The translations under genes were made by a program, and so were the position numbers. From Candidatus Dojkabacteria bacterium (GTDB lineage Bacteria; Patescibacteriota; Dojkabacteria; B142; WJKM01): a stretch of 61,972 nucleotides of DNA. Every line of letters begins with the position of its first letter. Within the stretch, counting starts at the first letter, position 1. Below the pieces are notes generated by a model. That model saw only the letters and a program-made list of their open reading frames with translations. It did no database searches and had not been told where the DNA came from. Shown here piece by piece: positions 10,706-51,956 of this stretch. The DNA is taken from contig WJKM01000009.1 of the NCBI GenBank assembly GCA_014729085.1, positions 1 to 61,972 on the forward strand, read 5' to 3'.

Positions 10706-12511
10706 ATGAAAAGAATTATTTCCTCAAGATTGAATTCAAGAATTGGGGAGAAAGTAAGAGTAAAAGGATGGCTGAATACAGTTAGAAGTTTAGGAAAAAT
10801 AAATTTCTTAATAATAAGAGATAGGGGAGGATTTACACAGATAGTGATTGAGAATCCCAAGGAATTTAAAAAAATCGAAGATTTGCAACCCGGATCAGTT
10901 TTAAGTATAGAAGGTGAAGTTCAAAAAACCGACCAAACTGAAAGTGGTGTTGAGATTAGTAATCCCTCAATAACTGTAGAAATACCAATTCAGAATGTTC
11001 CTGCCGTTGAATATACAAAGTCGGAAATAAGAGCAGATTTAGATACTGTATTGGACAATAGGGCAATTACTTTGAGAAATCGTCGTCATGCTGCTATTTT
11101 CAAAATTCAAGCAGAGATTGTAGCAGCTTACCGTGAATTTTTGAGATCTGAAGGGTTTATTGAATTCTTTGGACCTACTATTATAGGTGCTTCATCTGAG
11201 GGAGGTGCAGAATTATTTACAGTCAATTATTTTGATCATGAAGCAAAGTTGTCACAAAGCGCACAACTTTATAAGCAAATAATGGTTGGGGTTCATGAAA
11301 GAGTATTTGCATTGATGAAGTGTTATCGAGCAGAAAAATCAAATACTAGAAGACATCTAACAGAAGCAACTCAATTTGAATTTGAAATGGGATTTATTGA
11401 AGATTTTACTGAAGTTATGGATATGCTTGAGAAGACTATTAAATATATTATTAATCATTTACAAAATACTTGTAAATCGGAATTAGAGCTAATTGGAGCT
11501 GAATTACCGAAAGCTCCAGAGGATGTTAAGTTTCCTCGAGTACCATTCAAAAAGGCTTTAGAAATAGTTTTTGAGAGAACTGGAATAGATGAAAGGGAAG
11601 AAGATGACTTATCTCCAATGGCCGAGAAAGAGTTATGTAAATATGCTCTAAGGGAATTCGGAACCGATTTTGTTTTTGTACCATATTTTCTTAGAAAAAA
11701 ATGTGCTTTCTATGCAAAGCCAAATGAAGAAAATCCAGAGGTATGCAATTATTTTGATCTGCTTTGCAGGGAAATTGAGATAGTAAGCGGAGGACAAAGG
11801 ATAAATGATCATGACGAATTAGTTGAGTCTCTGAAACTTAAGGGCTTAGATCCTGAGGATTTTCAGGACTATCTTTCAATATTCAAGAGAGGAATGCCTA
11901 AACACGGAGGCTTTGGTATGGGAATGGAACGTTTAACAATGATGCTTCTAGGGCTTGATAATATTCGTGAGGCTACATTATTTCCTTCAGATCCTAAAAG
12001 AATAGCTGGAAACAGAATCAAAGCAGAAATTTTTACTGGTGCAGAAAATGTACGCAATGAAATTATCCGCCAATTAAAAGAAAATGAGTTCGAATACGAA
12101 CATCAAGAACATGAACCGACACCAACGTCTGAAGATTCCTCTAAAGTTAGGGGGACAAAACCGGAGGAAGGAGTAAAGGCAATAATACTAAAAGGTAAGA
12201 CAACTGGAAAGAATTATCAATTTAATTTACCCTCTCAACTCAAAATGAATATGAAAAAAGTAGCCAAGATTGTTGGTGAAAGATGTGAATTCGAGGATCC
12301 TAAAGTGTTAGAGAAACGGTTTGGTATCGTAGTGGGAGGTGTTCCCCCGTTTGGAAATTTACTTGGCCTTAAAACATATTTTGATAAACGAATACTGGAT
12401 GAAGAAAGAGCAGCTTTTAACTGTGGAATGCAAACTGAGTCAATCATTATGAAAAGTAATGATTTAGTTGAATTAGTAGAGCCGGAAATGGCTGATTTTG
12501 CTAAAAGTTGA
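10706..12511 (+). CDS. aspS: Aspartyl-tRNA synthetase (archaeal type) fused to a YbaK/ProX-type domain
   Basis: 601 residues. Residues 1 to about 110 are an OB anticodon-binding domain; about 130-440 is a class II catalytic core with motif 2 RAEKSNTRRHLTEATQFEFE and motif 3 GFGMGMERL (about 403). The core lacks the GAD insertion of ordinary bacterial AspRS and resembles archaeal or AspRS2-type enzymes, which are often non-discriminating and charge tRNA-Asn too. From about residue 470 to the end there is a YbaK/aminoacyl-tRNA-deacylase-like domain (GVKAIILKGK, RFGIVVGGVPPFGNLLGLKTY, AAFNCGMQTESIIM). Such domains normally hydrolyse mischarged tRNA or bind tRNA. The fusion is unusual to me. A T-box controls the gene. 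Confidence 0.88.
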   Translation: MKRIISSRLNSRIGEKVRVKGWLNTVRSLGKINFLIIRDRGGFTQIVIENPKEFKKIEDLQPGSVLSIEGEVQKTDQTESGVEISNPSITVEIPIQNVPAVEYTKSEIRADLDTVLDNRAITLRNRRHAAIFKIQAEIVAAYREFLRSEGFIEFFGPTIIGASSEGGAELFTVNYFDHEAKLSQSAQLYKQIMVGVHERVFALMKCYRAEKSNTRRHLTEATQFEFEMGFIEDFTEVMDMLEKTIKYIINHLQNTCKSELELIGAELPKAPEDVKFPRVPFKKALEIVFERTGIDEREEDDLSPMAEKELCKYALREFGTDFVFVPYFLRKKCAFYAKPNEENPEVCNYFDLLCREIEIVSGGQRINDHDELVESLKLKGLDPEDFQDYLSIFKRGMPKHGGFGMGMERLTMMLLGLDNIREATLFPSDPKRIAGNRIKAEIFTGAENVRNEIIRQLKENEFEYEHQEHEPTPTSEDSSKVRGTKPEEGVKAIILKGKTTGKNYQFNLPSQLKMNMKKVAKIVGERCEFEDPKVLEKRFGIVVGGVPPFGNLLGLKTYFDKRILDEERAAFNCGMQTESIIMKSNDLVELVEPEMADFAKS

Positions 12512-12533
12512 TGTTTTACAACCTTGATTCAAT

Positions 12534-12566
12534 AACAACAAGGGGGTTATTAACCTCCTTGTTTTG
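12534..12566 (+). terminator. Intrinsic terminator after aspS
   Basis: ACAAGGGGGTT (12538-12548) pairs with AACCTCCTTGT (12552-12562) around an ATT loop, followed by TTTGTT. Confidence 0.85.
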
Positions 12567-12567
12567 T

Positions 12568-12573
12568 TATAAT
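12568..12573 (+). promoter_or_regulatory. -10 box candidate for miaB
   Basis: TATAAT immediately after the aspS terminator gives an expected start near 12580, 18 nt before the miaB ATG. No good -35 is visible. Confidence 0.5.
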
Positions 12574-12597
12574 AATCATCATTATTAAAATTTTTCT

Positions 12598-14076
12598 ATG
12601 AAGTATTACGTCAAGACTTATGGTTGTCAAATGAATTATGCAGATTCGGAACGAATCAGAACTGTTTTTAATAATTTTGGGGTTGAAGAAGTTAAAGACA
12701 TCAAGAAAGCTGATTACATTGTTCTTAATTCATGTGCTGTAAGACAAAAAGCAGAGGATAAACTCTTAGGACAAGGTAGACTGATTAAGAGATTAAAACA
12801 AAAGCATAAGTCTCAATTCGATTCGTCTGCAAAAGAAGGTATATATCCAATTGTCATTCTCACTGGGTGTATGGTTAAGACTGGTATTAAAGGTAGAGTG
12901 AAAAAGAAATCAGTAGAAAGAATAAGAAATGAGTTACTTCACAATATAGATTGGCTTGATTATGCTGTTTCTATTGAAAAAGTATTTTCGTTATTAGAGC
13001 AGATTCTCTATGAAAGAGGTAACGAAAAGAAAAATAATGAATTAAGGGATCAGAGTAAAACTTACTTGGATATTCCATCTACACCCTATTCATCATTTGA
13101 AGCTTCTTTACCCATATCATACGGTTGTAATCATCATTGTACTTTTTGCACTGTTCCTTTTTCTAGAGGAGAAGAAAATTTTCGGTCTTATAATGAAATT
13201 AAAAATGAATATTCGGATTATGTAAAGCAGGAATATAAAAAGATTACATTGCTTGGTCAGACTGTAAATAAGTGGTTGAATCCAAAATATGAATATCATC
13301 CGAAGGCATATTCTTGGTATAAATATGGAGAGATACTCCCAAATGCCTTAGATAGCGATGGTTCAGAGCCAGATAATTTTTTAAACCTATTATCTGATTT
13401 AGATTCAGTAGAAGGAAAGTATTGGCTGAATTTTATTTCTTCATATCCAAATTATTTTACAAAAGATTTAATCAAATATATTGTGGAGTCGATTAAATCA
13501 GAAGATGGACATCTTGTTCCAAATATCCATTTGGCGGTTCAATCGGGTAGTAATCGAGTGCTTGCAGATATGTACAGGCATTATTCCATAGAAGAGTTTA
13601 TTAGTATAGTCAGACAGTTTAGAGAAAAAATTCCGGATATATCTATTACAACAGATATAATAGTGGGATATACTACAGAAACAGAAGAAGATTTTCAAAA
13701 AAGTATTGAGTTAGTTAGAAATATGGATTTTGATATGATTTATATTTCTGAATATTCCGTGAGACCGGATACCCCGGCTTCAGAATTGGGAGATAAAGTA
13801 TCAAAAATAGAGAAGACAAAGAGGAAAAAAATACTCAACAGTATTTTTGAAAAGAATTTAATTAAAAGGAATAAACAATTTTTAAATTCAACGCAGGAAG
13901 TCTTGATACAAAAAAGACATAAAAATAAATTGATAGGTAGAAGCAGATATGGAAAAGATGTAATGATTCTAAATACTAAAGATATCAATGATTTTTCTAG
14001 ATGGTATGGAAAATTTATTGAAGTAAAAATTACAGATACAGGAGCCTGGGGTTTAAAAGGAAAAGTCAAAGGTTAA
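12598..14076 (+). CDS. miaB: tRNA-2-methylthio-N6-dimethylallyladenosine synthase
   Basis: A 492-residue methylthiotransferase. The N-terminal UPF0004 domain begins MKYYVKTYGCQMNYADSE and has three cluster cysteines (YGCQ, NSCAVRQ, LTGCMV). The radical SAM motif CNHHCTFC is near residue 178, with the usual PFSRG after it. A C-terminal TRAM domain (about 425-490) completes the enzyme. MiaB adds the methylthio group to A37 of tRNAs reading UNN codons. Two low-complexity inserts (about 75-90 and 225-250) lengthen it beyond the usual 440-450 residues. No miaA gene is in the window. It stands alone between a terminator and a convergent gene. Confidence 0.92.
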   Translation: MKYYVKTYGCQMNYADSERIRTVFNNFGVEEVKDIKKADYIVLNSCAVRQKAEDKLLGQGRLIKRLKQKHKSQFDSSAKEGIYPIVILTGCMVKTGIKGRVKKKSVERIRNELLHNIDWLDYAVSIEKVFSLLEQILYERGNEKKNNELRDQSKTYLDIPSTPYSSFEASLPISYGCNHHCTFCTVPFSRGEENFRSYNEIKNEYSDYVKQEYKKITLLGQTVNKWLNPKYEYHPKAYSWYKYGEILPNALDSDGSEPDNFLNLLSDLDSVEGKYWLNFISSYPNYFTKDLIKYIVESIKSEDGHLVPNIHLAVQSGSNRVLADMYRHYSIEEFISIVRQFREKIPDISITTDIIVGYTTETEEDFQKSIELVRNMDFDMIYISEYSVRPDTPASELGDKVSKIEKTKRKKILNSIFEKNLIKRNKQFLNSTQEVLIQKRHKNKLIGRSRYGKDVMILNTKDINDFSRWYGKFIEVKITDTGAWGLKGKVKG

Positions 14077-14085
14077 ATCATAGAC

Positions 14086-14577
14086 TTAAAGAAAATTCTT
14101 TATATCATTAATTAAATAATTCGGAATCTTATCCTTCCATTCTGGTTTTTTTTCATTAAATTCTTTTCTTATTAAAGTACCTTTAAATACGTTTCGTTTA
14201 TAAAAGGGAATTTTTAAAATATTAAATCCCGCATTACGAAAAATATTAATTACCCAATCATCATTTGAGACAATTACATCAAAATTATTGATTTTTCCTA
14301 GGCAATGTTCAAGCCATTTGTCATCATTGTTTGGGAAGTCATCCAGTAGAACAATAGATTGGATACTATCCTGCAGTGCTTCATTTTTTATAACTTTCTC
14401 AATAAGTTTTTGTCTGTTTTTAGCAGAAATTGGGTTTTTATCGTTTTGGATATTTGCACTACCAATAGCAATAATCAATTTATCCAATACTTTGAGGCTC
14501 TCTTTAAGAATAAAAAGATGACCTTTGTGAAAAGGCTGGTAACGACCGATTAACAAACCAGTTGTATTTTTCTCCAT
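14086..14577 (-). CDS. nadM: Nicotinamide-nucleotide adenylyltransferase, archaeal NadM type
   Basis: 163 residues, the usual NadM length. The nucleotidyltransferase start GLLIGRYQPFHKGHLFIL has the (H/T)xGH-type HKGH; NPISAKNRQKLIEKV and the late FKGTLIRKEFNE correspond to the ISTGR-like and C-terminal motifs of this family. It joins NMN and ATP to give NAD+. The archaeal NadM type instead of bacterial NadD is common in CPR bacteria. It converges on miaB. An ATTATA on the plus strand near 14604 gives a minus-strand TATAAT, a plausible -10. Confidence 0.85.
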   Translation of the reverse strand: MEKNTTGLLIGRYQPFHKGHLFILKESLKVLDKLIIAIGSANIQNDKNPISAKNRQKLIEKVIKNEALQDSIQSIVLLDDFPNNDDKWLEHCLGKINNFDVIVSNDDWVINIFRNAGFNILKIPFYKRNVFKGTLIRKEFNEKKPEWKDKIPNYLINDIKNFL

Positions 14578-14641
14578 TTGAAGCCGTTAAAAAACTCTGG
14601 TTTATTATAAAACAAATAGATTCAGATATATAGTTAGATCG

Positions 14642-15268
14642 TTAGAAATTTTCAACTGGCTCCCAGCTAAGCGGTATCCGCATATAAGCAGTATCAGGTT
14701 CAATTACTTCATATCCCTCTGGGTTGTAGTAATGTTCAGGTATAGTGTAGTTATATTCTTTAATAGTATACTCTGCGGGTAATCCTGGAGTTCTTGTAAG
14801 TAGTTTTGTGAAATTATAAGTATTTGCATATTCTAATCCTGTGATTTCCTCTATGCCAAGTTCTTCTTGCAAGCCTCTTATGGCAGATTCTTTAAAGGTT
14901 TCACCTTGTTTTTTGGTCTCTCCTATGGAAAGTGAGTATCCCTGAGTAGATTTTGTCTCTACAAGTTCATCTTTGACATTATACCTATCTCTTCTTTGCT
15001 CAAGTAAAATCGATTCATTTGTTGGAGAGAATACATTTATATTTACTCCTTCTTTTAATTGTAATAATTTATTTTTCCTACTTGCTAATCGTGTATCTCC
15101 AATTTGAATTAATTGAGCTAGTTCGAAAATTTGTCCGAACGTCCATTGTTCAATCGGAACACCGTATTCAGTTAATATCTGTATGAGATGTCTATAATCA
15201 GAAACTGGCACAATTTCTGTGTTATCAGTTTCAGATTCAAGATTGCAAGTAATTTCAGCTGTTTCCAT
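14642..15268 (-). CDS. Nudix-domain protein
   Basis: 208 residues. The Nudix box is seen near residues 113-136 as GETKKQGETFKESAIRGLQE plus ELGI: it aligns with GGxxExGES..EAAxRELxEExGI but the Glu of REL is Gly and the second Gly is Glu. The two metal-ligand glutamates (EE) are kept, so activity is possible but uncertain. The N-terminal half is an acidic leader plus a helical region of unknown role. Nudix enzymes hydrolyse nucleoside-diphosphate-linked compounds; the substrate is unknown. The small gap to the next gene holds a terminator. Confidence 0.7.
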   Translation of the reverse strand: METAEITCNLESETDNTEIVPVSDYRHLIQILTEYGVPIEQWTFGQIFELAQLIQIGDTRLASRKNKLLQLKEGVNINVFSPTNESILLEQRRDRYNVKDELVETKSTQGYSLSIGETKKQGETFKESAIRGLQEELGIEEITGLEYANTYNFTKLLTRTPGLPAEYTIKEYNYTIPEHYYNPEGYEVIEPDTAYMRIPLSWEPVENF

Positions 15269-15338
15269 ATAGAGTTTGTAAAAGCCCTAGAATTATATCG
15301 TATATTTCGAATTTGTAAATTTCTTACAAAAAATAAAT

Positions 15339-15372
15339 AAAAAAACATGGATAGTCCTACCCATGTTTTTTT
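15339..15372 (-). terminator. Bidirectional-looking terminator
   Basis: AAAAAAACATGG and CCATGTTTTTTT flank a 10-nt loop. It ends the minus-strand gene at 15388-15930 and separates it from the Nudix gene. Confidence 0.8.
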
Positions 15373-15387
15373 ATATTTGATTTATTA

Positions 15388-15930
15388 TTATCCCTGATAT
15401 AATTCAAAATCGCCTTCTAAGTCGTCAAATGGAGAGTATTCCCAATCATCATTAAGTGGAGGACTGCAATCTTCTGTTACGTCTGTTATTCCAGTTTGTT
15501 CTAATACTGAATCTAGATGATGCTCTTCTCCATGGTTAACTATTCCATAATAATATTCAGGATTCATCATATATGGGGTTCCATCCTCCGTAACTAGTGT
15601 TGGCTGTCCATCTTCAGCAAAATCTAGATATAGAGTATCAACTCCTTCTAGAGTTTCTGGATCATATACATACACTTCAATTTCATTCAATGCGTTATAT
15701 TGGTTAGGTCCTATTTCTATGTCAGTATCCCACCAGTCTTCTAATGAGGTTTCTAAAGATCCGAGAAAACTATTACCGGCGCTAACGGCTGGACTAAAAT
15801 AAAGTGCTTCTGTATTACTTTTAGAGATATATTGCCAGTCATCTCTATAAGGCATACATGGTTCGTGGGAATCAAGCTCACATATATATGTGGGAGTTTC
15901 TAGCATTGGAGGGATAAAAGATTCTTCCAT
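15388..15930 (-). CDS. Acidic protein of unknown function (180 aa)
   Basis: I do not recognise this protein. It is strongly acidic, rich in Tyr, Trp and Pro, with four Cys (CELDSHEPC near residues 18-26, others late) and no signal peptide or membrane segment. A histidine-rich stretch VNHGEEHHLD lies near residue 130. Composition resembles the other acidic proteins of the window (3-590, 765-1997). It has its own terminator at 15339-15372. Confidence 0.5.
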   Translation of the reverse strand: MEESFIPPMLETPTYICELDSHEPCMPYRDDWQYISKSNTEALYFSPAVSAGNSFLGSLETSLEDWWDTDIEIGPNQYNALNEIEVYVYDPETLEGVDTLYLDFAEDGQPTLVTEDGTPYMMNPEYYYGIVNHGEEHHLDSVLEQTGITDVTEDCSPPLNDDWEYSPFDDLEGDFELYQG

Positions 15931-16074
15931 TTAATTAATTTAATAGATAATATAACGTACAATTATATCAACTATAGGGTAGAATATGCAACAGGTAACT
16001 CCAACGGTTTTTAACAAAACTTATTTCAATAATTTAGACCAAGAGGAAAAAATTATTAGATTTCCAGGAAGCAT

Positions 16075-17568
16075 TTATTTTAATCTTTCTGCTACTTCAT
16101 CTTTACCAAGTACCTCCATACTTTCGAAAAGAGGAGGGGAAATAGGAGAGCCTAAAGTTAAAATTCTTAATGTCATAAAAGCTTGTCCTGCTTTAATATC
16201 TAACTTTTTCGCTATATCTCGTATACAGCTTTCCCAATTATCATGTCCCCAATTTTTAATACTGGTTTGTTCATTTAGTTCGACAGAAAATTCAGAAATT
16301 ATTTTTTGTATTTCTTTTTCTTTTAATTTTTTTGTATGCTTATGTTCTTTAAGTATTTTTTCAATCTCTTTTGTTTCAGGTTTGAAGTAAAAATTGTATA
16401 TCAAATCTGAAATTTCAGAAAGCAGTTCGACACGTTCATGTACAAGTTCAAGTATTGTTTCTAAATAGTCTGGTCCTTTCTCGATAATTTCATTTTTCAA
16501 GTTTTCATCTTCCGAATATTTGTTTAACCACTTTGTATATTCAATGACAAAATCATCTGGGGATAGATTGTTGATGTATTTGTGGTTGAACCAAATTAGT
16601 TTGTCCCTATTGAAAACCGGGCTTGCTTTATTTAATTCTTCTAAAGAGAATAATTCTACAAAATCTTCAAGTGAGAAAAACTCTCTTTCTTTTTCTCCAT
16701 ACTCTCTTTCGAGAGGTGCTGACCATCCAAGAAGCATGAGAAAATTTAGTAATGCTTCAGGTAAATAACCTTCTTTCAAAAATTCCTCTGTAGATACTGT
16801 TCCCTTACGTTTAGAAAGTTTCCCGCCATCAGGATCTAGGATTACTGGCATATGAGCCATAACGGGAGGTTCAATTCCGAATGCATCAAATAGAACTAAG
16901 TGTTTGGGAACACTTGCCAACCATTCAATACCTCTTGTAATATGGGTGACACCCATAAGTACATCGTCAACAACAACTCCAAGATGATAAGTCGGAAAAC
17001 CATCACTTTTTAGTAGAACCTGATCATCGACATCATTGCTGTTCCATTCGACATGTCCCATCACAGCATCGTCTATGCTTAAGGTCTTATTCTGGGGAAT
17101 TTTGAGTCTAATTACGTATTCTTCACCTTTTTCTATTCTTGTTCTAGCTTCCTCAGGATCCAAGTCTCTGCATTTCTTGTCATACATAGGTTGCTTTTTT
17201 TCCTTGATTTGTTTTTTCCTTAATTTCTCAAGCCTATCTTCACTGCAGAAACAATAATATGCTTTTCCATCTTCTACTAATTTCTCGGCTTTTTTTTGAT
17301 ATATTTTTAAACGTTTTGATTGAATATATGGCCCATTGGGACCCCCTACTATTGGACCTTCATCGTATTCAAGGCCTAGAATGTTCAGCATATCGATAAT
17401 GTTTTGTACTCCACCTTCTACCTCTCTTTTTTTATCTGTATCTTCGATTCTAAGTATAAATTTACCGTTATGCTTTCTAGCTAAAGCATAACTGTATAAA
17501 GCGGTTCTTACCCCTCCAATATGCAAAAATCCAGTTGGACTTGGAGCAAAACGTGTCTTAACTTTCAT
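16075..17568 (-). CDS. gltX: Glutamyl-tRNA synthetase
   Basis: 497 residues, full length. The class I HIGH motif appears as PSPTGFLHIGG (about 10-20) and the KMSKS motif as KLSKRKG (about 250). YCFCSEDRLEKL with a later Cys suggests the zinc-binding region. The C-terminal helical anticodon-binding domain is complete. It attaches Glu to tRNA-Glu and, in organisms using GatCAB, also to tRNA-Gln; which applies is not visible here. It has a clean promoter and, unlike the other synthetases of this window except perhaps metG itself, no attenuator or T-box upstream. Confidence 0.93.
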   Translation of the reverse strand: MKVKTRFAPSPTGFLHIGGVRTALYSYALARKHNGKFILRIEDTDKKREVEGGVQNIIDMLNILGLEYDEGPIVGGPNGPYIQSKRLKIYQKKAEKLVEDGKAYYCFCSEDRLEKLRKKQIKEKKQPMYDKKCRDLDPEEARTRIEKGEEYVIRLKIPQNKTLSIDDAVMGHVEWNSNDVDDQVLLKSDGFPTYHLGVVVDDVLMGVTHITRGIEWLASVPKHLVLFDAFGIEPPVMAHMPVILDPDGGKLSKRKGTVSTEEFLKEGYLPEALLNFLMLLGWSAPLEREYGEKEREFFSLEDFVELFSLEELNKASPVFNRDKLIWFNHKYINNLSPDDFVIEYTKWLNKYSEDENLKNEIIEKGPDYLETILELVHERVELLSEISDLIYNFYFKPETKEIEKILKEHKHTKKLKEKEIQKIISEFSVELNEQTSIKNWGHDNWESCIRDIAKKLDIKAGQAFMTLRILTLGSPISPPLFESMEVLGKDEVAERLK

Positions 17569-17602
17569 AGATATTTATTAAGATTTAAGTGTAATTAGTT
17601 AA

Positions 17603-17631
17603 ATTTTACAATGTTTTCATAATAGGTTCAA
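17603..17631 (-). promoter_or_regulatory. Promoter of gltX
   Basis: Read on the minus strand: TTGAAC (17631-17626), 17-bp spacer, TAAAAT (17608-17603). Start near 17596 leaves about 28 nt before the ATG. Confidence 0.65.
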
Positions 17632-17639
17632 TTTTTATA

Positions 17640-18140
17640 ATTTTCGTATAATATCAACCCTATAATTTATGTATACTGATTAAGTAATTAGTGAAATGAA
17701 TTTTTAGCACTGTAAGAAATAATGTGCTTTGATGTTAGAATTAAATTTGTCAAACAAAATATTGGTTGATAATTATTAAATAACAGATAAGGGTAGGCTA
17801 TGGATTAGCATAAGAATTTGCTAATACTATAGAGCCTTTAAATTGATTTTGTTTTTTGTTTCGTTTTCCTACCTGACTGCAAAATGAAATACTACGGACT
17901 AAAATCCATGTTTTCAAAACGGAATTCTTTGAAGCAGAAAATTTGTATTCATCCCCTGTTTGAAAATAGAGGTTTACAGCGAAGAGGTATATAAATATAC
18001 TATTAATGCGAAATCCGGCAGGCACGGTGCATCAAGGCAAAAATGAATTAACAAACTGGATAACATAAAGTGTTAAACTGATACTATTTTCGAAAACTAC
18101 ACAGTTTCAAATTTTTCTAAATTTGCGCTTGTAGATTTAT
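17640..18140. other. Intergenic region of about 500 nt with strong hairpins, no recognised gene
   Basis: No convincing protein gene is seen. A long hairpin is at 17797-17837 (GGCT...AGCC closing ATTAGCA/TGCTAAT), and GGTAGG (17792-17797 region) can pair with CCTACC (17868-17874 region) to enclose it. A more GC-rich patch lies at 18005-18040. TATAAT-like boxes at about 17649 and 17660 could start a transcript on the plus strand. I checked for RNase P, tmRNA, SRP and 6S signatures and found none. It may hold an unrecognised non-coding RNA. Confidence 0.3.
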
Positions 18141-31855: not shown

Positions 31856-31909
31856 ATGAATAAATATTTAAATTTAAAACAAAATTGTTGCTGTACTAAC
31901 TCTTTATAA
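31856..31909 (+). CDS. Cys leader peptide A (attenuator)
   Basis: A 17-residue ORF, MNKYLNLKQNCCCTNSL, with three consecutive Cys codons (TGT TGC TGT at 31886-31894) directly before hairpin segment 1. Its last codons encode segment 1 (CTAACTCTT, 31896-31904). This is the arrangement of amino-acid-specific leader peptides such as TrpL. It is too short for ordinary gene calling. Confidence 0.85.
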   Translation: MNKYLNLKQNCCCTNSL

Positions 31910-31978
31910 GGGTTAGATACTCTATTTTTTGAATTTAAATAAAGTAACAATAACTAACCCTTCGAGGTTAGTTTTTTT
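31896..31978 (+). promoter_or_regulatory. Attenuator A of the Cys unit (antiterminator and terminator)
   Basis: Four segments: 1 CTAACTCTT (31896-31904), 2 AAGGGTTAG (31908-31916), 3 CTAACCCTT (31954-31962), 4 GGTTAGT (31966-31972) with a T-run to 31978. 1:2 pairs over 9 bp (one G-U), 2:3 over 9 perfect bp (antiterminator), 3:4 as ACTAACC/GGTTAGT with CTTCGA loop (terminator). A ribosome paused at the Cys codons would cover segment 1 and favour 2:3, so read-through rises when Cys-tRNA is short. Confidence 0.88.
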
Positions 31979-31986
31979 ATACATTT

Positions 31987-32055
31987 ATGAAATATATTTT
32001 AAAAAATTTAAAAATTCAATTCTGTTGCTGTAAAGATCCGCCTTGTTGTAGCTGA
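31987..32055 (+). CDS. Cys leader peptide B (attenuator)
   Basis: A 22-residue ORF starting 9 nt after the first T-run. It contains three consecutive Cys codons (TGT TGC TGT, 32023-32031) and two more near the end (TGT TGT, 32044-32049) before AGC TGA. The TGTTGCTGT block is the same as in leader A, which suggests tandem duplication. Confidence 0.85.
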   Translation: MKYILKNLKIQFCCCKDPPCCS

Positions 32056-32112
32056 TTTGTTGAATATGCAAATATTACTACTAAACTAGTCAGCTTAAGG
32101 ACTAGTTTTTTT
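32014..32112 (+). promoter_or_regulatory. Attenuator B of the Cys unit
   Basis: Terminator: AAACTAGTC (32083-32091) with GACTAGTTT (32100-32108), loop of 8, T-run to 32112. Antiterminator candidate: AGCTGA (32050-32055, overlapping the leader stop) with TCAGCT (32090-32095), which would break the terminator base. ATTCAA (32014-32019) can pair with TTGAAT (32060-32065). The antiterminator is weaker than in A. Confidence 0.75.
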
Positions 32113-39268: not shown

Positions 39269-39296
39269 GATAAATAAAATAATAATTAAAATATTG

Positions 39297-39367
39297 GGTG
39301 GCCTGCGGGTTTCGAACCTGCAACGACCTTCACTAAAGGTTGCTTTACCACTTAAGCTAAGTCCACC
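39297..39367 (-). tRNA. Atypical tRNA (His-like G-1/C73 signature; anticodon region ambiguous)
   Basis: Reading the minus strand from 39367: acceptor GTGGACT after a G at -1, TA, D-arm GCTT-AAGTGGTA-AAGC, anticodon region ACCTTTAGTGAAGGT, T-arm GCAGG-TTCGAAA-CCCGC, acceptor AGGCCAC and C73. G-1:C73 is the tRNA-His signature and a GTG occurs in the loop, but with 5-bp stem ACCTT/AAGGT the loop is only TAGTG. With a 7-nt loop TTAGTGA the anticodon would be AGT (Thr). The gene is 71 nt, three shorter than expected, with A-C in the T-stem and A-G in the acceptor. It may be degenerate, or specialised. Confidence 0.65.
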
Positions 39368-39372
39368 ATGAT

Positions 39373-41466
39373 TTAACCTTGAATTAGACCTTGTTTTACC
39401 AATTCTTGTTCAATAAACTCCATCATCTCATAAGTAACTGAAGTTGGGTTTTTGCATGACAATGAAATCATCGACCAGCCAGGAGTTATTGTGACTATGT
39501 CAGAAAAAGCATAATCAGAATATTGGTAATTAATATCATCTAAAAACTCTCTTATATTTTCATAATTCCCTTTTTCAGTAATATCAATAACTCGTGTAAC
39601 GGTTGATATATTTTGAGAATTCAGTTGTTTCTTCGCTAATTCGTAAGATGCGTGTGCAAGGTTTGCTCCAGTAAATCGCCAATTATTGTCTTGGATAGTT
39701 ACAAATGTATCGTCAAAAAAGATTCCTCCAGCTTCATAGATCCCAAAATCATTTCCTGCTAAGGCAATACCATCTTCCCTGAGAGCATCTGCGAGTGCTC
39801 TTTGGGTGGATAATATTGTTTCAAAATAATTTTCGAATTTATTTCGTTTTGTTTGATCCTGTCCGGCTAGTTTGATGAAATCAGCTTTAGTCATGGTGGA
39901 ATTACCAACCCATCGTTGATCTCTGACTGTCTGACTTGTAATGATATCTTCTAAAGCATATCCTCCCAAAATATGGGCAGAAGGTGTTAGATCAGATTGA
40001 TATTGATCTTGGCTTTTTTCGTAGAATGAGTTTGTCGCAATGACTGAGGATTGTCCTGCGTCCCAAGCTTTTTCGGCTAATTCTGCGATAATTTTTTCTC
40101 CTTCAGAAGTATTTGGAATTCTAGGAAAAGTATTTTTTCCATCACTTGCTGTTGACCATTTAAAGCAACACATTGGCAATCCATACATATCTTTAAGCCT
40201 TCTTTGAGCTTTTAAGACCTTATTTATGTAGCTTGTTTTAGATTCTTGTGAATTATCCTCCTCATTAAAAATTATTGAATAACCTGGAGCATAAATTGGA
40301 ACATCAAGCCCAAATGAATTGTTTTGGGATTTAATTTCTTCATAAACACCTTTTTGTCCTAATACTGAATAGTAGGACTCTATTTGTAATAGTTCATATC
40401 TTTCTTGTCTAATTTGATTTAATTGATATGGAGTTAATCTCGAAAAATTTTCAATTGTCGGACTTTCTTTTAATTGATTTAGTGTGATTTCTTGTGTTTG
40501 GTTTTCTTTTATAGTAAGAAATAGATTCTGCAATTCAAATTGAGATAAATCTGCAAGCACGTTTAAATTAATATCGAGAGTTTTGTATATTGACTCTGGA
40601 ATTTGGTTTAGTCTACCTAACTCAGGATACATTGCATCTTTTCGATTTAAAGAAGAAACTTCAGGACTATTTGCTTCCACTCTTATTTTGTTTATTTCCG
40701 GGTTCGATTTTTGTACTTCCTGCAACAAGTATAAGAGCAGGATTTGTGTAGGTATATCAGAAGCATATACTCTTATAAGTGCATTTGGATTTTGTGACAA
40801 GAAATCACATAAGAGATCAAGACTAGATTCTTCTCCATTTTCTTTTTTTAAAGCTTCAAGTAGCAGGGCATCTGAAGTGTGATAGTATTCTAGGTTTCCT
40901 GCGTCAATTATCTTTACCTGTTCATTATTCATATTTTGCTCTGAAAGATACACTCCTTTGTTTTCTTTCAATTGTCTTTCCAACAGCAAACCTCGTCTAA
41001 TTATTAAATCTCCGGGACGTTCTGAGTTGCCTTTCTGGGTTAAGGTAACAGCTCTATCTCCAATATCTATATCATAACCACCGGGACGACGACCTGTTTT
41101 CAATGCTTGGATATCTGTTTCATAAAAAGCCGAAGCCCTATTTGCAAAGTGCATAACAATTGAGGGGTTGTCAGAAAAAATTTCTCCTTTTCCTGACTGA
41201 TTAACATAAGGTTGTAATAACTCTCCGGCGGTTTTTTGAAGAATTGAGAGATTCTCCTTAGTATTATCTCTCATTTGTTCTTTTAAGATACCATTACCAA
41301 GTAAGACAGTGGCAATGTATGAATATTCCTGTGAATTAAATATATCCAATCCTCTATCCATCTCACCAGAATCCCAAACATATTCTTTCCCATTAATATC
41401 AAAAGAGAATAGGTTTTTTTCTGGTGTTTGAGTCAATTGTGTTTTTGTTTCAAGATTTAATTGCAT
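39373..41466 (-). CDS. Unknown enzyme, possible ATP-grasp-like; paralogue of 48581-50443
   Basis: 697 residues with no signal peptide. It is a diverged paralogue of the gene at 48581-50443: shared segments include NPNALIRVYASDI / DPNLVLQVYATDE, IRVEANSPEV / LKVDANSDEV, YAPGYSIIFNEE / RMPGYHIEWNED, LTPSAHILGGYA / LAPSIHVRGGKA and ITPGWSMIS / IPPGWGLFG. The late part (GIYEAGGIFFDDTFVTIQDN) might be a degraded ATP-grasp metal site. It sits between a leader-peptide attenuator and an odd tRNA gene. No function can be assigned; aminoacyl or carboxylate ligation is a guess from position and fold hint. Confidence 0.5.
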   Translation of the reverse strand: MQLNLETKTQLTQTPEKNLFSFDINGKEYVWDSGEMDRGLDIFNSQEYSYIATVLLGNGILKEQMRDNTKENLSILQKTAGELLQPYVNQSGKGEIFSDNPSIVMHFANRASAFYETDIQALKTGRRPGGYDIDIGDRAVTLTQKGNSERPGDLIIRRGLLLERQLKENKGVYLSEQNMNNEQVKIIDAGNLEYYHTSDALLLEALKKENGEESSLDLLCDFLSQNPNALIRVYASDIPTQILLLYLLQEVQKSNPEINKIRVEANSPEVSSLNRKDAMYPELGRLNQIPESIYKTLDINLNVLADLSQFELQNLFLTIKENQTQEITLNQLKESPTIENFSRLTPYQLNQIRQERYELLQIESYYSVLGQKGVYEEIKSQNNSFGLDVPIYAPGYSIIFNEEDNSQESKTSYINKVLKAQRRLKDMYGLPMCCFKWSTASDGKNTFPRIPNTSEGEKIIAELAEKAWDAGQSSVIATNSFYEKSQDQYQSDLTPSAHILGGYALEDIITSQTVRDQRWVGNSTMTKADFIKLAGQDQTKRNKFENYFETILSTQRALADALREDGIALAGNDFGIYEAGGIFFDDTFVTIQDNNWRFTGANLAHASYELAKKQLNSQNISTVTRVIDITEKGNYENIREFLDDINYQYSDYAFSDIVTITPGWSMISLSCKNPTSVTYEMMEFIEQELVKQGLIQG

Positions 41467-41521: not shown

Positions 41522-41545
41522 AAAAAACTCCCAAGTTAGGGAGTT
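41522..41545 (-). terminator. Second terminator of the minus-strand attenuator
   Basis: On the minus strand AACTCCC (41545-41539) pairs with GGGAGTT (41532-41526) around TAACTT, followed by TTTTC. It lies 12 nt after the first terminator, giving a doubled stop before the 697-aa gene. Confidence 0.75.
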
Positions 41546-41553
41546 GACTAAAT

Positions 41554-41628
41554 AAAAACTCCCAGCATCAAAACTGGGAGATCAGGAAATTATAGATAAT
41601 AATGGATCACCCAGCCTTTATCTGGTGA
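41554..41628 (-). promoter_or_regulatory. Attenuator of the 697-aa gene (four-segment)
   Basis: Minus-strand segments: 1 TCACCAG (41628-41622, inside the leader), 2 CTGGGTGATC (41614-41605), 3 GATCTCCCAG (41583-41574), 4 CTGGGAG (41565-41559) with T-run 41558-41554. 1:2 pairs with one bulged G; 2:3 pairs over 10 positions with one mismatch; 3:4 is the terminator (7 bp, loop TTTTGATG). The layout is the same as in attenuators A, C and D. A TATACT on the minus strand at 41693-41688 is a likely -10. Confidence 0.75.
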
Positions 41629-41669
41629 GGATGTCCTAAGTTATTTGTTATTAGAATTGTAATATTCAT
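41607..41669 (-). CDS. Leader peptide E (two His codons)
   Basis: A 20-residue ORF, MNITILITNNLGHPHQIKAG, stop TGA. The codons next to segment 1 are CAT CCT CAC CAG, so His is the best candidate signal, with the G-1/C73 tRNA downstream as weak support. There is no run of one codon, so the sensed amino acid is uncertain (Pro, Gly, Leu or others are possible). Confidence 0.55.
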   Translation of the reverse strand: MNITILITNNLGHPHQIKAG

Positions 41670-47251: not shown

Positions 47252-48279
47252 ATGCAAGAAGTACAACCAATAAAAAACGAAAATGTCTTTAACTGGCAAG
47301 AATGGGAGGATAGTGCCTTGCTTTGGCATGTGGAAACAGGTGCTGCGTCATTACTAGAAGCAGACTATGATAAAAAAATAGATAAGTATTTAAAAATATG
47401 GACGAGAAGAGCTTATGGACTAGAAGAGGATGAGTTTGAAAGTACAATTGTTTTTCATCCTACGTTTAAAGAATACAAAGAAGCAACTAGAAGTTACAGA
47501 GATAGCTTCACAAAATTTATTAAAAGATTTGTACCAAGTTACGATGATCCTTACACCGATGTTGACCCAAGTGGATCTATGTTTTCTGATTGGTTTGAAA
47601 ATAAGATACATGTAAATATGGAGGCTGAGAGTTATAAAGAAACAACAAAGGTTAAACAGGCACAGGCAAAAGGGTTCTATGGTCCTGATTATAGGGCAAT
47701 ATTGCTCAGAAACGGGATATGTCATGAATTAGAACATCTCAAACCAAATTTTCTTCTACGAGATTTTATGGAGAGTTTAAAGATTTTAAACCTGTTACCT
47801 ATAATGATTTTGAAGTAAATTATATTAATGGTTTTCGTATTTATTATTCTGGATTAAGAGAGACCGATACATCAGAGCCGATAAGAGCTGTTTATAGTGG
47901 TTTGGAAGAAGCTACTATTGATTTATTAAGTAAGGAGAGATTAAATGATCTTAATGCTCATCAAGCTTTTACAGGAGGATATCATGAACTAGTAAATTTT
48001 TTAAGAGATGTTTTAGATTTAACTGATATTTCAATTGATGAATTACAGTATATAGAAGAGAATGAAGGAGCCGAGGGGATTCTCAATAGATGGAAAGATT
48101 TCTTTTACGGTAATTCACAGCTTGCATTTAATTTATATACTCTTTTCGATATGATAGCGCAAAATCCTGAAAGTATTGATGAGGCAAGAGAGTATCTCTC
48201 AAATAATATTGAGTTGAGTAGAGCTTCAAATAAACCGCTAAAGAAAATCCTTGCAAGAATAGCTGGCTTCTTTATGTAA
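47252..48279 (+). CDS. HExxH-containing protein, split by a -1 frameshift
   Basis: The first frame (47252-47818) contains NGICHELEHLKPNF (HExxH at about residue 158) and stops at 47818. The second frame, one base back, is open from before 47750 to 48279 and continues with FYGEFKDFKPVTYNDFEVNY and a C-terminal region of about 170 residues. The shift lies at the heptamer A-AAT-TTT (47746-47752), a canonical slippery sequence in the right phase. GTTTAAAGATTTTAAAC, a perfect hairpin, follows about 18 nt later. The joined product has about 343 residues. Either programmed frameshifting or a simple mutation or sequencing error explains it; no family recognised besides a possible zinc site. Confidence 0.55.
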
Positions 48280-48288
48280 ACTTTGTGT

Positions 48289-48294
48289 TATAAT
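48289..48294 (+). promoter_or_regulatory. Extended -10 promoter of the Met-attenuator transcript
   Basis: TGTTATAAT (TG at 48286-48287, TATAAT at 48289-48294) is an extended -10. The start near 48301 is about three bases before the leader-C ATG at 48304. A clear -35 is not visible. Confidence 0.7.
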
Positions 48295-48303
48295 TGAATC
48301 AGC

Positions 48304-48357
48304 ATGAAAACAAGAATTTTAAACAATCAAAATATGTATATGATGAAAACTTCTTAA
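48304..48357 (+). CDS. Met leader peptide C (attenuator)
   Basis: A 17-residue ORF, MKTRILNNQNMYMMKTS, with internal Met codons at 48334, 48340 and 48343, followed directly by AAA ACT TCT TAA. The ACT TCT codons form segment 1 of the attenuator. Confidence 0.83.
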   Translation: MKTRILNNQNMYMMKTS

Positions 48358-48419
48358 TGGAGGTTATTCATTTGTTGTTTAAGATATTAGTTAATAGCCT
48401 CCAAATAGGAGGTTTTTTT
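48348..48419 (+). promoter_or_regulatory. Attenuator C of the Met unit
   Basis: Segments: 1 AACTTCT (48348-48354), 2 GGAGGTT within TGGAGGTTATT (48358-48368), 3 AATAGCCTCCA (48393-48403), 4 GGAGG (48408-48412) with T-run 48413-48419. 1:2 gives 7 bp with two G-U; 2:3 gives 11 bp (TGGAGGTTATT/AATAGCCTCCA, one G-U), stronger than 3:4 (CCTCC/GGAGG, loop of 5). Ribosome pausing at the Met codons would free 2 to pair with 3 and allow read-through. Confidence 0.85.
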
Positions 48420-48435
48420 ATTTTATAAAGTGATT

Positions 48436-48516
48436 ATGGTTTATTTCGCAAAATCAACATTTCAAATAATGATAATGGCAATGATGCAAAGCTTCTTATG
48501 GGAGGTTGATTTTTAA
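48436..48516 (+). CDS. Met leader peptide D (attenuator)
   Basis: A 26-residue ORF starting MVYFAKSTFQ and then IMIMAMMQ: four Met codons in six positions (48469, 48475, 48481, 48484). The end FLWEVDF runs through segment 2, so a ribosome that reaches the stop also covers segment 2. Its ATGATG.AAA.CTTCTTA...GGAGGTT core is clearly related to leader C, indicating tandem duplication. Confidence 0.83.
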   Translation: MVYFAKSTFQIMIMAMMQSFLWEVDF

Positions 48517-48559
48517 TTTAATATCTTCATTTAAAACCTCCCAAAAGGGAGGTTTTTTT
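48489..48559 (+). promoter_or_regulatory. Attenuator D of the Met unit
   Basis: Segments: 1 AGCTTCT (48490-48496), 2 TGGGAGGTT (48499-48507), 3 AACCTCCCA (48535-48543), 4 GGGAGGTT (48547-48554) with T-run to 48559. 2:3 is 9 perfect bp; 3:4 is 8 bp with AAAA loop and is the terminator. 1:2 pairs with three G-U. Confidence 0.85.
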
Positions 48560-48580
48560 ATTTATTAAACAGAACAAGCT

Positions 48581-50443
48581 ATGGAGCAAAATATAAACAC
48601 AATTAAACCAGCAGATAATTATGGATATACCTGGCCTTTGAATATGGAAAGAAGACAAATAGAGATAAATTCAAATTTCAAAACCGAAGAGAGTACAAAG
48701 CTTGAATGGGTTTGCCAAGATGGTCCGTTTCTCTTAGAAGATCTACCAGATGTAGGAAGTTTAGAAAAAGTTGCTGATGCAATATGGCAAGAGGATCTTG
48801 AAGCTGCGCTTTTAGAAGCAAAGTCTTCATGGGAACCTTATATAGCAGAGAATGGAGAGGATAACGCAAGGAGAGTTATTATAACGGGGGCTACTAATAG
48901 GATAAATGCTCGAGATGGTGTTGATATAGATTACTTAAAGAATCATGGAGCAGTATTGGGTGCAAATTCAATTCTGGAAACTAGAGAAATAGCTTTGGCA
49001 AAGCCTGGAGATGTAGTTTTTGGAAATTGTAAGGCCTGGCGTGAGATAGCAAATAGACGTAATGATATTGAAGCTTATCCCATAGGAAAGGGTTTTTTAA
49101 ACTATAATTCACATAGATGGCTTTATAAAATACTTGAAAGTATAGGCGAAGAGGAACCTTCAGATCCTGAATTACAGGCAATAATCAATCATCTTGCCAT
49201 AGACCCGAATTTAGTCCTCCAAGTCTATGCAACTGACGAAGAGACAGATTTATTTTTTCTATATTTACGCGATAAGGTCAATGAATATCGAAATAAAATT
49301 GATCCAAATCTACCTTTGATTGATAAACTCAAGGTTGATGCAAATAGTGATGAAGTAACTAGGAGGCTCTCAAGTAAAGGTTATTTGTATCCTAGTCCTG
49401 AGTCTGTATATGATCTAGAAGTAAAAGAAGATACGTATGAGAGTTGGATTGAAGCAGAAGGGGAATTGTCACCAATACAAAAAGACTTAGGATACCTGAC
49501 TCCTAGAATGCCCGGATATCATATTGAGTGGAATGAAGATTATAAAAAATTTGCTAAAAATGTAGCTTTAGCTATAGATTTGATGAAGAATAGATGGGGA
49601 AGTACTAATAATTATTTTAAGCATATTGCAGGTGCTGACGGAGGAAGCGCTTTTCCAAGTAACTTCGAAAGTGAAGATTTTGATATAGGGAAATTAATTG
49701 ATAAGTTATATAGTGGAAAGCATTCCTGGGTTGTAGAACCATTTGTAAATTATAGAAGATTTGAAGTTGAGATAAACGGGAATACTCAAGTACGATCGTT
49801 GGCCCCCTCAATACATGTTAGAGGAGGTAAGGCTTATGATACTAAACTGGTTCAACTTTTAGTTGCAAAAAAGTGCGAGGATGGTTCTATTGAAGAAACA
49901 GGAGAGTGGGGAGGGCATGTATATTCACCACGTAGCGAAGTTGAAAGAGTTTTTAATTCAGGAGAAAAATATTTTGGAATGAATGAGGATGAATATAATC
50001 AGTGTTTCCAAGCATTAGAAGACCTTGTAGAAAGATATAAGGAAAATGGATTTTCTAGAGGAGGTATTGATACAGCCATAGGTACAATAGATACCAGATG
50101 GGGGAAGATTGAGATTAATGCCTTACAGGATATGAACATTAGGACCACTGCCGGAGATACAACCAGGGCTTTTGGAAAGTTAATTGAGCAGGAATTTGGA
50201 CGTGAATTTCCTTTTACTACTTTAGTTATAAAACCAGAAATGGGGATTGAGTTTGAAGATGTTGAAAATGCCTTAGATGAAATAGCAATAGAAAATAATT
50301 TGGATAGAGATTTGATTAGATTAGTATGTACAATTCCCCCTGGTTGGGGATTGTTTGGTACAATATCTAAGGAAGCAAAAACATCCTTGTCTAATGCATT
50401 TACTGTAGAGAAAGGACTTCGTAAAAGAGGTTTGATAGTCTAA
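48581..50443 (+). CDS. Unknown enzyme, possible ATP-grasp-like; Met-attenuated paralogue of 39373-41466
   Basis: 620 residues, soluble, only three Cys. Residues about 205-260 (DPNLVLQVYATDEETDLFFL) and about 300-340 (RMPGYHIEWNED) match the paralogue on the minus strand. HSWVVEPFVNYRRFEVEI (about 386-403) followed by RGGIDTAIGTIDTRWGKIEIN (key Glu-x-Asn near residue 507-509) resembles the ATP-grasp core, where Glu and Asn bind Mg-ATP. IRTTAGDTTRAF follows. The family is unknown to me. The 14-nt gap to metG (gap to the chosen start is 64 nt) and the tandem Met attenuators upstream suggest a methionine-linked role; this is inference. Confidence 0.55.
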   Translation: MEQNINTIKPADNYGYTWPLNMERRQIEINSNFKTEESTKLEWVCQDGPFLLEDLPDVGSLEKVADAIWQEDLEAALLEAKSSWEPYIAENGEDNARRVIITGATNRINARDGVDIDYLKNHGAVLGANSILETREIALAKPGDVVFGNCKAWREIANRRNDIEAYPIGKGFLNYNSHRWLYKILESIGEEEPSDPELQAIINHLAIDPNLVLQVYATDEETDLFFLYLRDKVNEYRNKIDPNLPLIDKLKVDANSDEVTRRLSSKGYLYPSPESVYDLEVKEDTYESWIEAEGELSPIQKDLGYLTPRMPGYHIEWNEDYKKFAKNVALAIDLMKNRWGSTNNYFKHIAGADGGSAFPSNFESEDFDIGKLIDKLYSGKHSWVVEPFVNYRRFEVEINGNTQVRSLAPSIHVRGGKAYDTKLVQLLVAKKCEDGSIEETGEWGGHVYSPRSEVERVFNSGEKYFGMNEDEYNQCFQALEDLVERYKENGFSRGGIDTAIGTIDTRWGKIEINALQDMNIRTTAGDTTRAFGKLIEQEFGREFPFTTLVIKPEMGIEFEDVENALDEIAIENNLDRDLIRLVCTIPPGWGLFGTISKEAKTSLSNAFTVEKGLRKRGLIV

Positions 50444-50507
50444 AAACTGTTTAGATTTGTTTCGTATCTTTGAGTATAATACTAGTAATTTACTTATGAT
50501 TAATATT

Positions 50508-51956
50508 ATGAAAATGTCTCAAAAATTTTATTTGACAACCACACTTCCCTACGTTAATGCAATACCACATGTAGGGCACACATTAGAGTTTGTCCAGGCA
50601 GATGTAATAGCTCGATATATGAGACAGAAATTAGGTAACGATAATGTCTATTTTAATGTAGGGACAGATGAACATGGGTTGAAAATATTTAGAAAAGCAA
50701 AAAAAGAGGGCTTAGAAATACAGGATTACGTCGATAAATATGCAGAAAAGTGGAAAGAATTTTGCGAATTATTGCAAATTTCCTATGATAGGTTTATTAG
50801 AACAACAGATACAGACCATATAAAGTCAGCAACTGAATTTTGGGAAACATGTGATGAAGCAGGTGATATTTATAAGAAAAAATATGAGGGCTTATATTGT
50901 GTTGGATGTGAAGAGTTCAAGACAGAGAAAGACCTAGTTGATGGAAAGTGTCCAGCCCATCAGAAGGAACCAGAGAAATATTCAGAAGAAAATTATTTTT
51001 TTAAATTTTCGAAATACCAGAATAAACTTCTTGAACTTTATAAGAAGAATGCTAACTTTGTTAAGCCTAAATCAAAATTAAAAGAAATGACAAGTTTTGT
51101 TAGTAGTGGACTTGAGGATTTCAGTATTTCCAGAAGAAAAGAAAACTTACCTTGGGGAGTGCCAGTACCTGGAGATGATGAGCAGGTGATGTATGTTTGG
51201 TTCGATGCTTTAGTTAATTATATAACAACAATAGGTTATGGCAGTAACGAGGAGAAGTTTGAGAAATGGTGGCCTTGTGTCCAATTGTGCGGTCCAGACA
51301 ATACCCGTTTTCAATCTGCTATGTGGCAGGCAATGCTAATGTCTGCAGGAATCGAGCCTTCCGATCAGATTTTAGTTCATGGAATGATACTTGCTGAAGA
51401 TGGAACTAAAATGAGTAAAACGATAGGAAACGTTGTTTCTCCATTTGATTTGATTGAGAGATATGGGGTTGATGCTGTACGGTACTATTTGGTTGCAGGT
51501 ATCCCTACATTTTCTGATGTTGCATTTAGCTATAAGCAGTTAGAATCAGAATATAGGGGTGATTTACAAAATAATTTTGGTAATTTATTAAATAGAATAA
51601 TAACCTTAATTAAGAAACGAGAGGTAGAAATAGACGAAAGTAGAGTCGATTCTAACTTTAAGAAAAAAGTTGATGAATATGTTGAAAACTATACAGAATT
51701 TATGGACCAATTTGTTTTATATGATGCAATGAAGAAAGTGGAAGAACTTGGGACTTATGGGAATCGCTATATTGCTGAGGAAGAGCCATGGGCTAAAAAT
51801 ATAAGACATGAAGAAGCTGAAGAGGTGCTAAACAATCTTCATTACTTGGTTAGAAGGATGATTGTTTGTTATTCACCAGTTTTGCCTGAAAAATGCAAGA
51901 AAGCAGAGCAAGCATTGAAAAATCTTGAAAACGTTATTCTTTTTGAGAAGATATAA
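50508..51956 (+). CDS. metG: Methionyl-tRNA synthetase
   Basis: 482 residues from the chosen start. Signatures are PYVNAIPHVGHT (HIGH), KMSKTIGN (KMSKS) and the zinc knuckle CVGCEEFKTEKDLVDGKCPAH, which is of the CxxC...CxxH type. There is no C-terminal EMAP/tRNA-binding extension. Homologues start near MSQKFYLTT, so I use the ATG at 50508; a longer frame opens at 50457 and an ATG at 50496 is possible. TATAAT at 50475-50480 could give metG its own promoter, in addition to read-through from the Met-attenuated transcript. Confidence 0.93.
   Translation: MKMSQKFYLTTTLPYVNAIPHVGHTLEFVQADVIARYMRQKLGNDNVYFNVGTDEHGLKIFRKAKKEGLEIQDYVDKYAEKWKEFCELLQISYDRFIRTTDTDHIKSATEFWETCDEAGDIYKKKYEGLYCVGCEEFKTEKDLVDGKCPAHQKEPEKYSEENYFFKFSKYQNKLLELYKKNANFVKPKSKLKEMTSFVSSGLEDFSISRRKENLPWGVPVPGDDEQVMYVWFDALVNYITTIGYGSNEEKFEKWWPCVQLCGPDNTRFQSAMWQAMLMSAGIEPSDQILVHGMILAEDGTKMSKTIGNVVSPFDLIERYGVDAVRYYLVAGIPTFSDVAFSYKQLESEYRGDLQNNFGNLLNRIITLIKKREVEIDESRVDSNFKKKVDEYVENYTEFMDQFVLYDAMKKVEELGTYGNRYIAEEEPWAKNIRHEEAEEVLNNLHYLVRRMIVCYSPVLPEKCKKAEQALKNLENVILFEKI

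Follow-up and report, generated by a model that had tools for sequence, protein, structure and literature searches.

Leader-peptide attenuation of synthetase genes is known from E. coli pheST and from Streptomyces trpS and leuS, and no conserved RNA element was found for the Met operons of Actinobacteria (PMC1262725). In the uORFC-8-2 motif, which lies before cysS, tandem Cys codons in a short ORF are followed by a terminator (PMC8632094). Tandem attenuators in one leader are known from Salmonella mgtCBR, where the signals are ATP and proline (PMC3641672). In a literature search, which was weak on subscription journals, we found no Met-codon attenuator and no leader-peptide attenuation in CPR bacteria. 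In Firmicutes, the same physiological signal class is served by T-box leaders of Met-related genes and by S-box/SAM riboswitches; no such element was detected at the locus described here.

The locus lies in a 61,972-nt stretch of DNA (the window) from a genome placed near Ca. Dojkabacteria (CPR), whose MetG is 67% identical to that of its nearest named relative, a Ca. Dojkabacteria MAG. Positions 48289–48581 hold two complete transcription attenuators in tandem, C and D, each combining a short ORF, the leader, in which Met codons cluster, with an antiterminator and an intrinsic terminator that exclude each other. The arrangement resembles pheST, trpS and leuS in having a cognate-codon leader, a 2:3 antiterminator, a 3:4 terminator and a synthetase gene, here one that may have its own promoter, in the unit (PMC1262725), and departs from them in that Met would be the amino acid sensed, the attenuator is present as two copies in series, the first gene is of unknown function, and the host is a CPR bacterium with genes almost devoid of Shine-Dalgarno motifs. 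As in mgtCBR, a single leader region carries two attenuators; in mgtCBR, one of them is a codon-rich short ORF. The mgtCBR attenuators respond to different signals, whereas C and D both read Met and are duplicates, and the pair is therefore not of the mgtCBR type, with its two different signals. The elements of the locus are as follows.

48286–48294, + strand: extended −10 element TGTTATAAT, 9 nt 5′ of the leader C ATG
48304–48357, + strand: leader peptide C including its stop codon, MKTRILNNQNMYMMKTS, with Met codons at 48334, 48340 and 48343
48316–48326, + strand: segment 1 of attenuator C, pairing with 48375–48385 as an 11-bp helix in the MFE fold
48358–48368, + strand: segment 2 of attenuator C, abutting the leader C stop codon
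48393–48403, + strand: segment 3 of attenuator C, forming the 11-bp 2:3 antiterminator with 48358–48368
48396–48421, + strand: terminator C, a 3:4 hairpin (48396–48414) followed by a T run
48424–48429, + strand: possible −10 element TATAAA, 6 nt before leader D, possibly a promoter of its own for D
48436–48516, + strand: leader peptide D including its stop codon, MVYFAKSTFQIMIMAMMQSFLWEVDF, with internal Met codons at 48469, 48475, 48481 and 48484
48450–48458, + strand: segment 1 of attenuator D (AAAATCAAC), pairing in the MFE fold with 48505–48513, which overlaps segment 2
48499–48507, + strand: segment 2 of attenuator D, inside the 3′ end of leader D
48535–48543, + strand: segment 3 of attenuator D, forming the 9-bp 2:3 antiterminator with 48499–48507
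48533–48563, + strand: terminator D, a 10-bp 3:4 hairpin (48533–48556) followed by a T run

Every part that the sequence-only reading had proposed for the two Met-codon leaders, each with an antiterminator and a terminator, can thus be located, and the 2:3 helix lengths that it gave, 11 and 9 bp, are correct. The control-codon clusters comprise three Met codons in C and four internal Met codons in D, and the distance from the last Met codon to segment 2 is exactly 12 nt in both. Segment 1 of C consists of the codons immediately 5′ of the control codons. The stop codon directly abuts segment 2 in C and lies past segment 2 in D. This observed geometry fits a stalled ribosome that frees segment 2 and a terminating ribosome that covers it.

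We consider it very likely that C and D are ribosome-mediated attenuators that act in series and sense charged elongator Met-tRNA. Transcription would start at or next to the leader C ATG, with a ribosome trailing the polymerase. With ample Met-tRNA, the ribosome would pass the Met codons, reach the stop codon and cover segment 2, leaving segments 3 and 4 to form the terminator, and transcription would halt. With charged elongator Met-tRNA scarce, the ribosome would pause on the Met codons, which end 12 nt short of segment 2, and would mask segment 1; segment 2 could then pair with segment 3, and the polymerase would continue. Coupling, leader translation, stalling and read-through are all inferred here without expression data. 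The duplicated leader D would repeat the test, and we infer that such serial action would make the off state tighter and the response steeper. Complete read-through would lead to transcription of a 620-aa gene and probably of metG behind it. The twin switches thus probably turn on the 620-aa gene, and perhaps also metG, when methionine is short.

Folding calculations support this arrangement in part. The whole-leader folding z-scores are −4.0 for C and −2.4 for D, and the antiterminator is the structure of lower energy when C is folded from segment 2 onward (−15.4 kcal/mol). The 11-bp 1:2 helix of C is accompanied by a z-score of −3.0 for the 5′ part. By contrast, the 9-bp 1:2 helix of D does not differ significantly from shuffled sequences, and D folded freely from segment 2 onward prefers the terminator (−18.6 kcal/mol, versus −13.1 kcal/mol for the 2:3 helix). 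Read-through at D would therefore need the 2:3 helix to form first and to be kinetically trapped, as in known attenuators.

Chance does not readily produce these parts. At least three Met in six residues occur in 0.7%, and at least four in 0.11%, of background short ORFs (n = 3,536). The combination of a terminator, an antiterminator and an ATG leader was found at 10 loci in 638 kb of the same genome, whereas ten dinucleotide-shuffled copies averaged 0.8; with 638 kb of 1.6 Mb sampled, the count is a lower bound. A run of three identical residues is uninformative alone, because in this AT-rich DNA it is present in more than half of the background ORFs, and the telling signals are rare residues, here Met and Cys, and stretches of four or five identical residues. 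Furthermore, C and D align end to end with a score of 67, versus 18.3 ± 2.5 for shuffles. One of the two is therefore a duplicate of the other, which bears out the origin by duplication inferred by the sequence-only reading.

Two genes follow the attenuators.

48581–50443, + strand: 620-aa gene, function not known, the first gene behind the attenuators
50499–51956, + strand: metG (methionyl-tRNA synthetase), Pfam tRNA-synt_1g, E = 1e-97

The 620-aa protein has no Pfam or NCBIfam match. Among 86 genomes of the class, its family occurs in two, and among 380 genomes sampled from the phylum likewise in two, the genome under study being counted each time; the family is lineage-restricted. A structure prediction from an alignment of two proteins of the window gave a mean pLDDT of only 33, and PDB profile searches with this family, as well as with a second family described below, returned chance matches only. 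Motifs read by eye give the impression of an ATP-grasp-like protein, which is not established. As to metG, it had been claimed to belong to the unit, and it is indeed the second gene, 55 nt behind the 620-aa gene with no terminator in the gap, and is likely also transcribed from the attenuated unit; this cotranscription is inferred. Its dependence on the attenuators is less certain, since the gap contains a TATAAT of its own (50475–50480), and metG may be independent of them or made independently as well.

Leaders and hairpins in the DNA indicate that switches of this type exist for eight or more amino acids in the genome of this uncultured bacterium. In the 638 kb sampled, the leaders besides those for Met comprise two for Cys, two for Tyr, two for Trp, and one each for Phe, Leu, Ile and Val, and all of these stand before synthetase or amino-acid-enzyme genes. 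Two further loci of the window belong in this comparison.

31856–32108, + strand: tandem Cys attenuators with leaders CCC and CCC..CC, before a cysK-like gene (32131) and cysS (33188)
41526–41669, − strand: possible His leader MNITILITNNLGHPHQIKAG (HPH) with tandem terminators, before a 697-aa paralogue (39373–41466, − strand)

The Cys leaders are MNKYLNLKQNCCCTNSL and MKYILKNLKIQFCCCKDPPCCS; the gene behind them is read as a cysteine synthase, with a CysS homologue after it, and CysS homologues are present in 77 of 86 genomes. The parallel Cys unit placed 16 kb away by the sequence-only reading is thus real. It resembles uORFC-8-2, as do the Cys leaders of relatives, uORFC-8-2 being confined to Cys (PMC8632094). 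The Phe leader MNIYQENNKFFFFFEIHH precedes a paralogue that shares 52% identity with the 620-aa gene. The gene of a GCS2-family enzyme is preceded by two Tyr leaders, one containing NKNYYYSKLTLG and the other reading MVFKFITQNYYYYYSELSFR; an amino-acid racemase and a chorismate mutase are encoded further downstream. Trp leader MKNKIFLLKNMWWQKRI lies before trpS, as read from the sequence, and Trp leader MYNKFFKQINNKWWKTRLC before an Asp/Glu-type racemase. Racemases of this type occur in both the Tyr- and the Trp-attenuated units (L129 2203–5382 and 15633–16490; L181) and may serve to convert D- to L-amino acids.

The leaders for Leu (MNKKLMQQNLLNLLLVLTGFSG), Ile (MRKNFLLDSVIIIP) and Val (MNQIFLNNNVVVVVEPRLSGG) each precede a different member of a tandem set of three paralogues, about 600 aa in size; that for Ile was read from the sequence, the scanner having missed its terminator. 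These paralogues (L143, G000:C2:60001–80000, 11700–17911) have no fitting Pfam family. Profile comparison gave no link between them and either the GCS2-type Tyr enzyme or the 620-aa family; they are GCS2-like by eye only, and the GCS2 Pfam match is confined to the Tyr-regulated enzyme. A further locus, L130 (3018–2893, − strand), carries a strong 12-bp antiterminator and a terminator with the leader ORF VNTNQFTNTIKFLPYYPNWVRQVTEV, to which no signal could be assigned.

Paralogues of the 620-aa gene in the same genome thus stand behind the Phe leader, behind the possible His leader and behind a T-box-like element. The MNITILITNNLGHPHQIKAG leader is perhaps a His signal; directly behind its 697-aa paralogue lies a tRNA gene (39296–39366) that ARAGORN assigns to Thr(AGT), an unusual anticodon. 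The T-box-like element (L133 8225–8379) precedes a fourth paralogue of the family on another contig and matches RF00230 with 39 bits (E = 2.8e-7), below the gathering score of 93. Amino-acid control of the 620-aa family therefore seems to rely on two different mechanisms.

Comparable leaders occur in relatives, in a recurrent but sporadic manner between genomes. In a genome from another family of the class (G053), Met leader MNNTVFNMMMTPNIS lies directly before metG with its own antiterminator and terminator, and a sister genome of the same genus is without a Met leader before metG. In other Dojkabacteria families, Cys leaders precede cysS units in G034, G038, G030 and G044, and Trp leaders precede trpS units in G003, G060 and G044, with a racemase between leader and trpS in G003. 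Large ligase-like genes of G007 and G044 are preceded by Ile leaders. An unbiased scan of the trpS and cysS loci of relatives gave five hits, every one of which carries at least two cognate residues; the Cys and Trp leaders of G044 were found by a targeted search. In G001, the closest relative, metG is without a leader, and the 620-aa gene is absent from the corresponding spot. The support from relatives therefore consists of analogous cognate leaders (cysS, trpS, metG), because orthologous Met leaders are absent from the closest relative.

Outside Dojkabacteria, metG of a Moraniibacteriota MAG has, about 330 nt upstream, a candidate Met leader, MRENNYKIKIMMLMSQFF, together with a terminator (L073 3674–3785). 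In L078, a Met-rich ORF that lies downstream of metG is attributed to chance. ORFs that look by eye like M20 peptidases adjoin ligase-like genes in the closest relative (L137 5028–7389) and in G044 (a 366-aa ORF, L178).

The hairpins might instead be ordinary intrinsic terminators of the upstream gene, with the Met-rich ORFs arising by chance, since they lie 117 and 254 nt 3′ of its stop codon and gene ends can have tandem terminators; it had been stated in advance that such terminators would refute the attenuator reading. We regard this as very unlikely. The upstream stop codon is at 48279, and the extended −10 element separates it from leader C. No −35 consensus was seen before leader C. An exact TATAAT lies 6–10 nt before the ATG in 5 of the 15 leaders of this type, versus 1.1% of background ORFs, and leader transcripts probably start at or near the start codon. 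Moreover, a competing 2:3 helix at both terminators, the rarity of the Met clusters, the shared 12-nt spacing and the equivalent cognate-codon leaders at other loci and in other genomes all speak against simple gene-end terminators. The upstream gene itself (47252–48279) is apparently frameshifted, consisting of two ORFs in different frames, the first with a HELEH motif, and has no similarity to the gene beside the Phe-regulated paralogue. Control of the terminators by a peptide-independent element, such as a riboswitch, a T-box or a protein-binding attenuator, seems to us scarcely tenable. It could draw on the T-box-like element before a paralogue and on the weak scores of some Rfam leader models at this locus. 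Yet no Rfam covariance model reaches its gathering score anywhere in the window, the matches within 48200–48700 all being sub-threshold, the T-box motif UGGNACC was not seen in the region, and the clusters of Met codons and their fixed spacing would be left unexplained. The absence of S-box, SAM or T-box control asserted from the sequence alone is upheld by the lack of an Rfam match at threshold.

More weight attaches to an arrangement in which the attenuators are real and D has its own leaderless promoter, so that C and D work side by side, little depends on C, and metG is mainly transcribed from its own promoter; we hold this to be possible, though not the likelier course. The TATAAA before the D start and the TATAAT before metG are compatible with it, and Shine-Dalgarno-like motifs, present in only 1.8% of 274 long ORFs (638 kb sampled of this genome), are so scarce that internal starts give no clear signal. 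For the same reason, the missing Shine-Dalgarno motif before leader D is normal, and initiation in this genome seems largely independent of such motifs. Against the parallel arrangement, TATAAA is one mismatch from TATAAT, and 16% of background ORFs have as much by chance; furthermore, tandem leaders for the same signal recur for Cys and Tyr, suggesting that a serial layout is kept. We retain the reading of C and D as serial attenuators responding to charged elongator Met-tRNA.

We tentatively suggest, as one possibility that remains some way from established, that these loci belong to an amino-acid-wide attenuation regulon of Dojkabacteria, which would combine synthetases with lineage-restricted families of large ligase-like enzymes, each devoted to a single amino acid (Met, Phe, Leu, Ile, Val, Tyr, possibly His), and with partner racemases and peptidases, and which could be an unknown route for a host-dependent cell to gain, trap or free specific amino acids. 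If so, each leader would reveal the substrate of its enzyme. The control codons point directly to the amino acid served by an unknown enzyme, which makes the function of unannotated families testable, and natural tandem attenuators with the same signal offer material for work on the way in which switches in series sharpen a response. If confirmed, the finding would mean that small host-dependent genomes without most known regulators sense many amino acids by codon-specific stalling.
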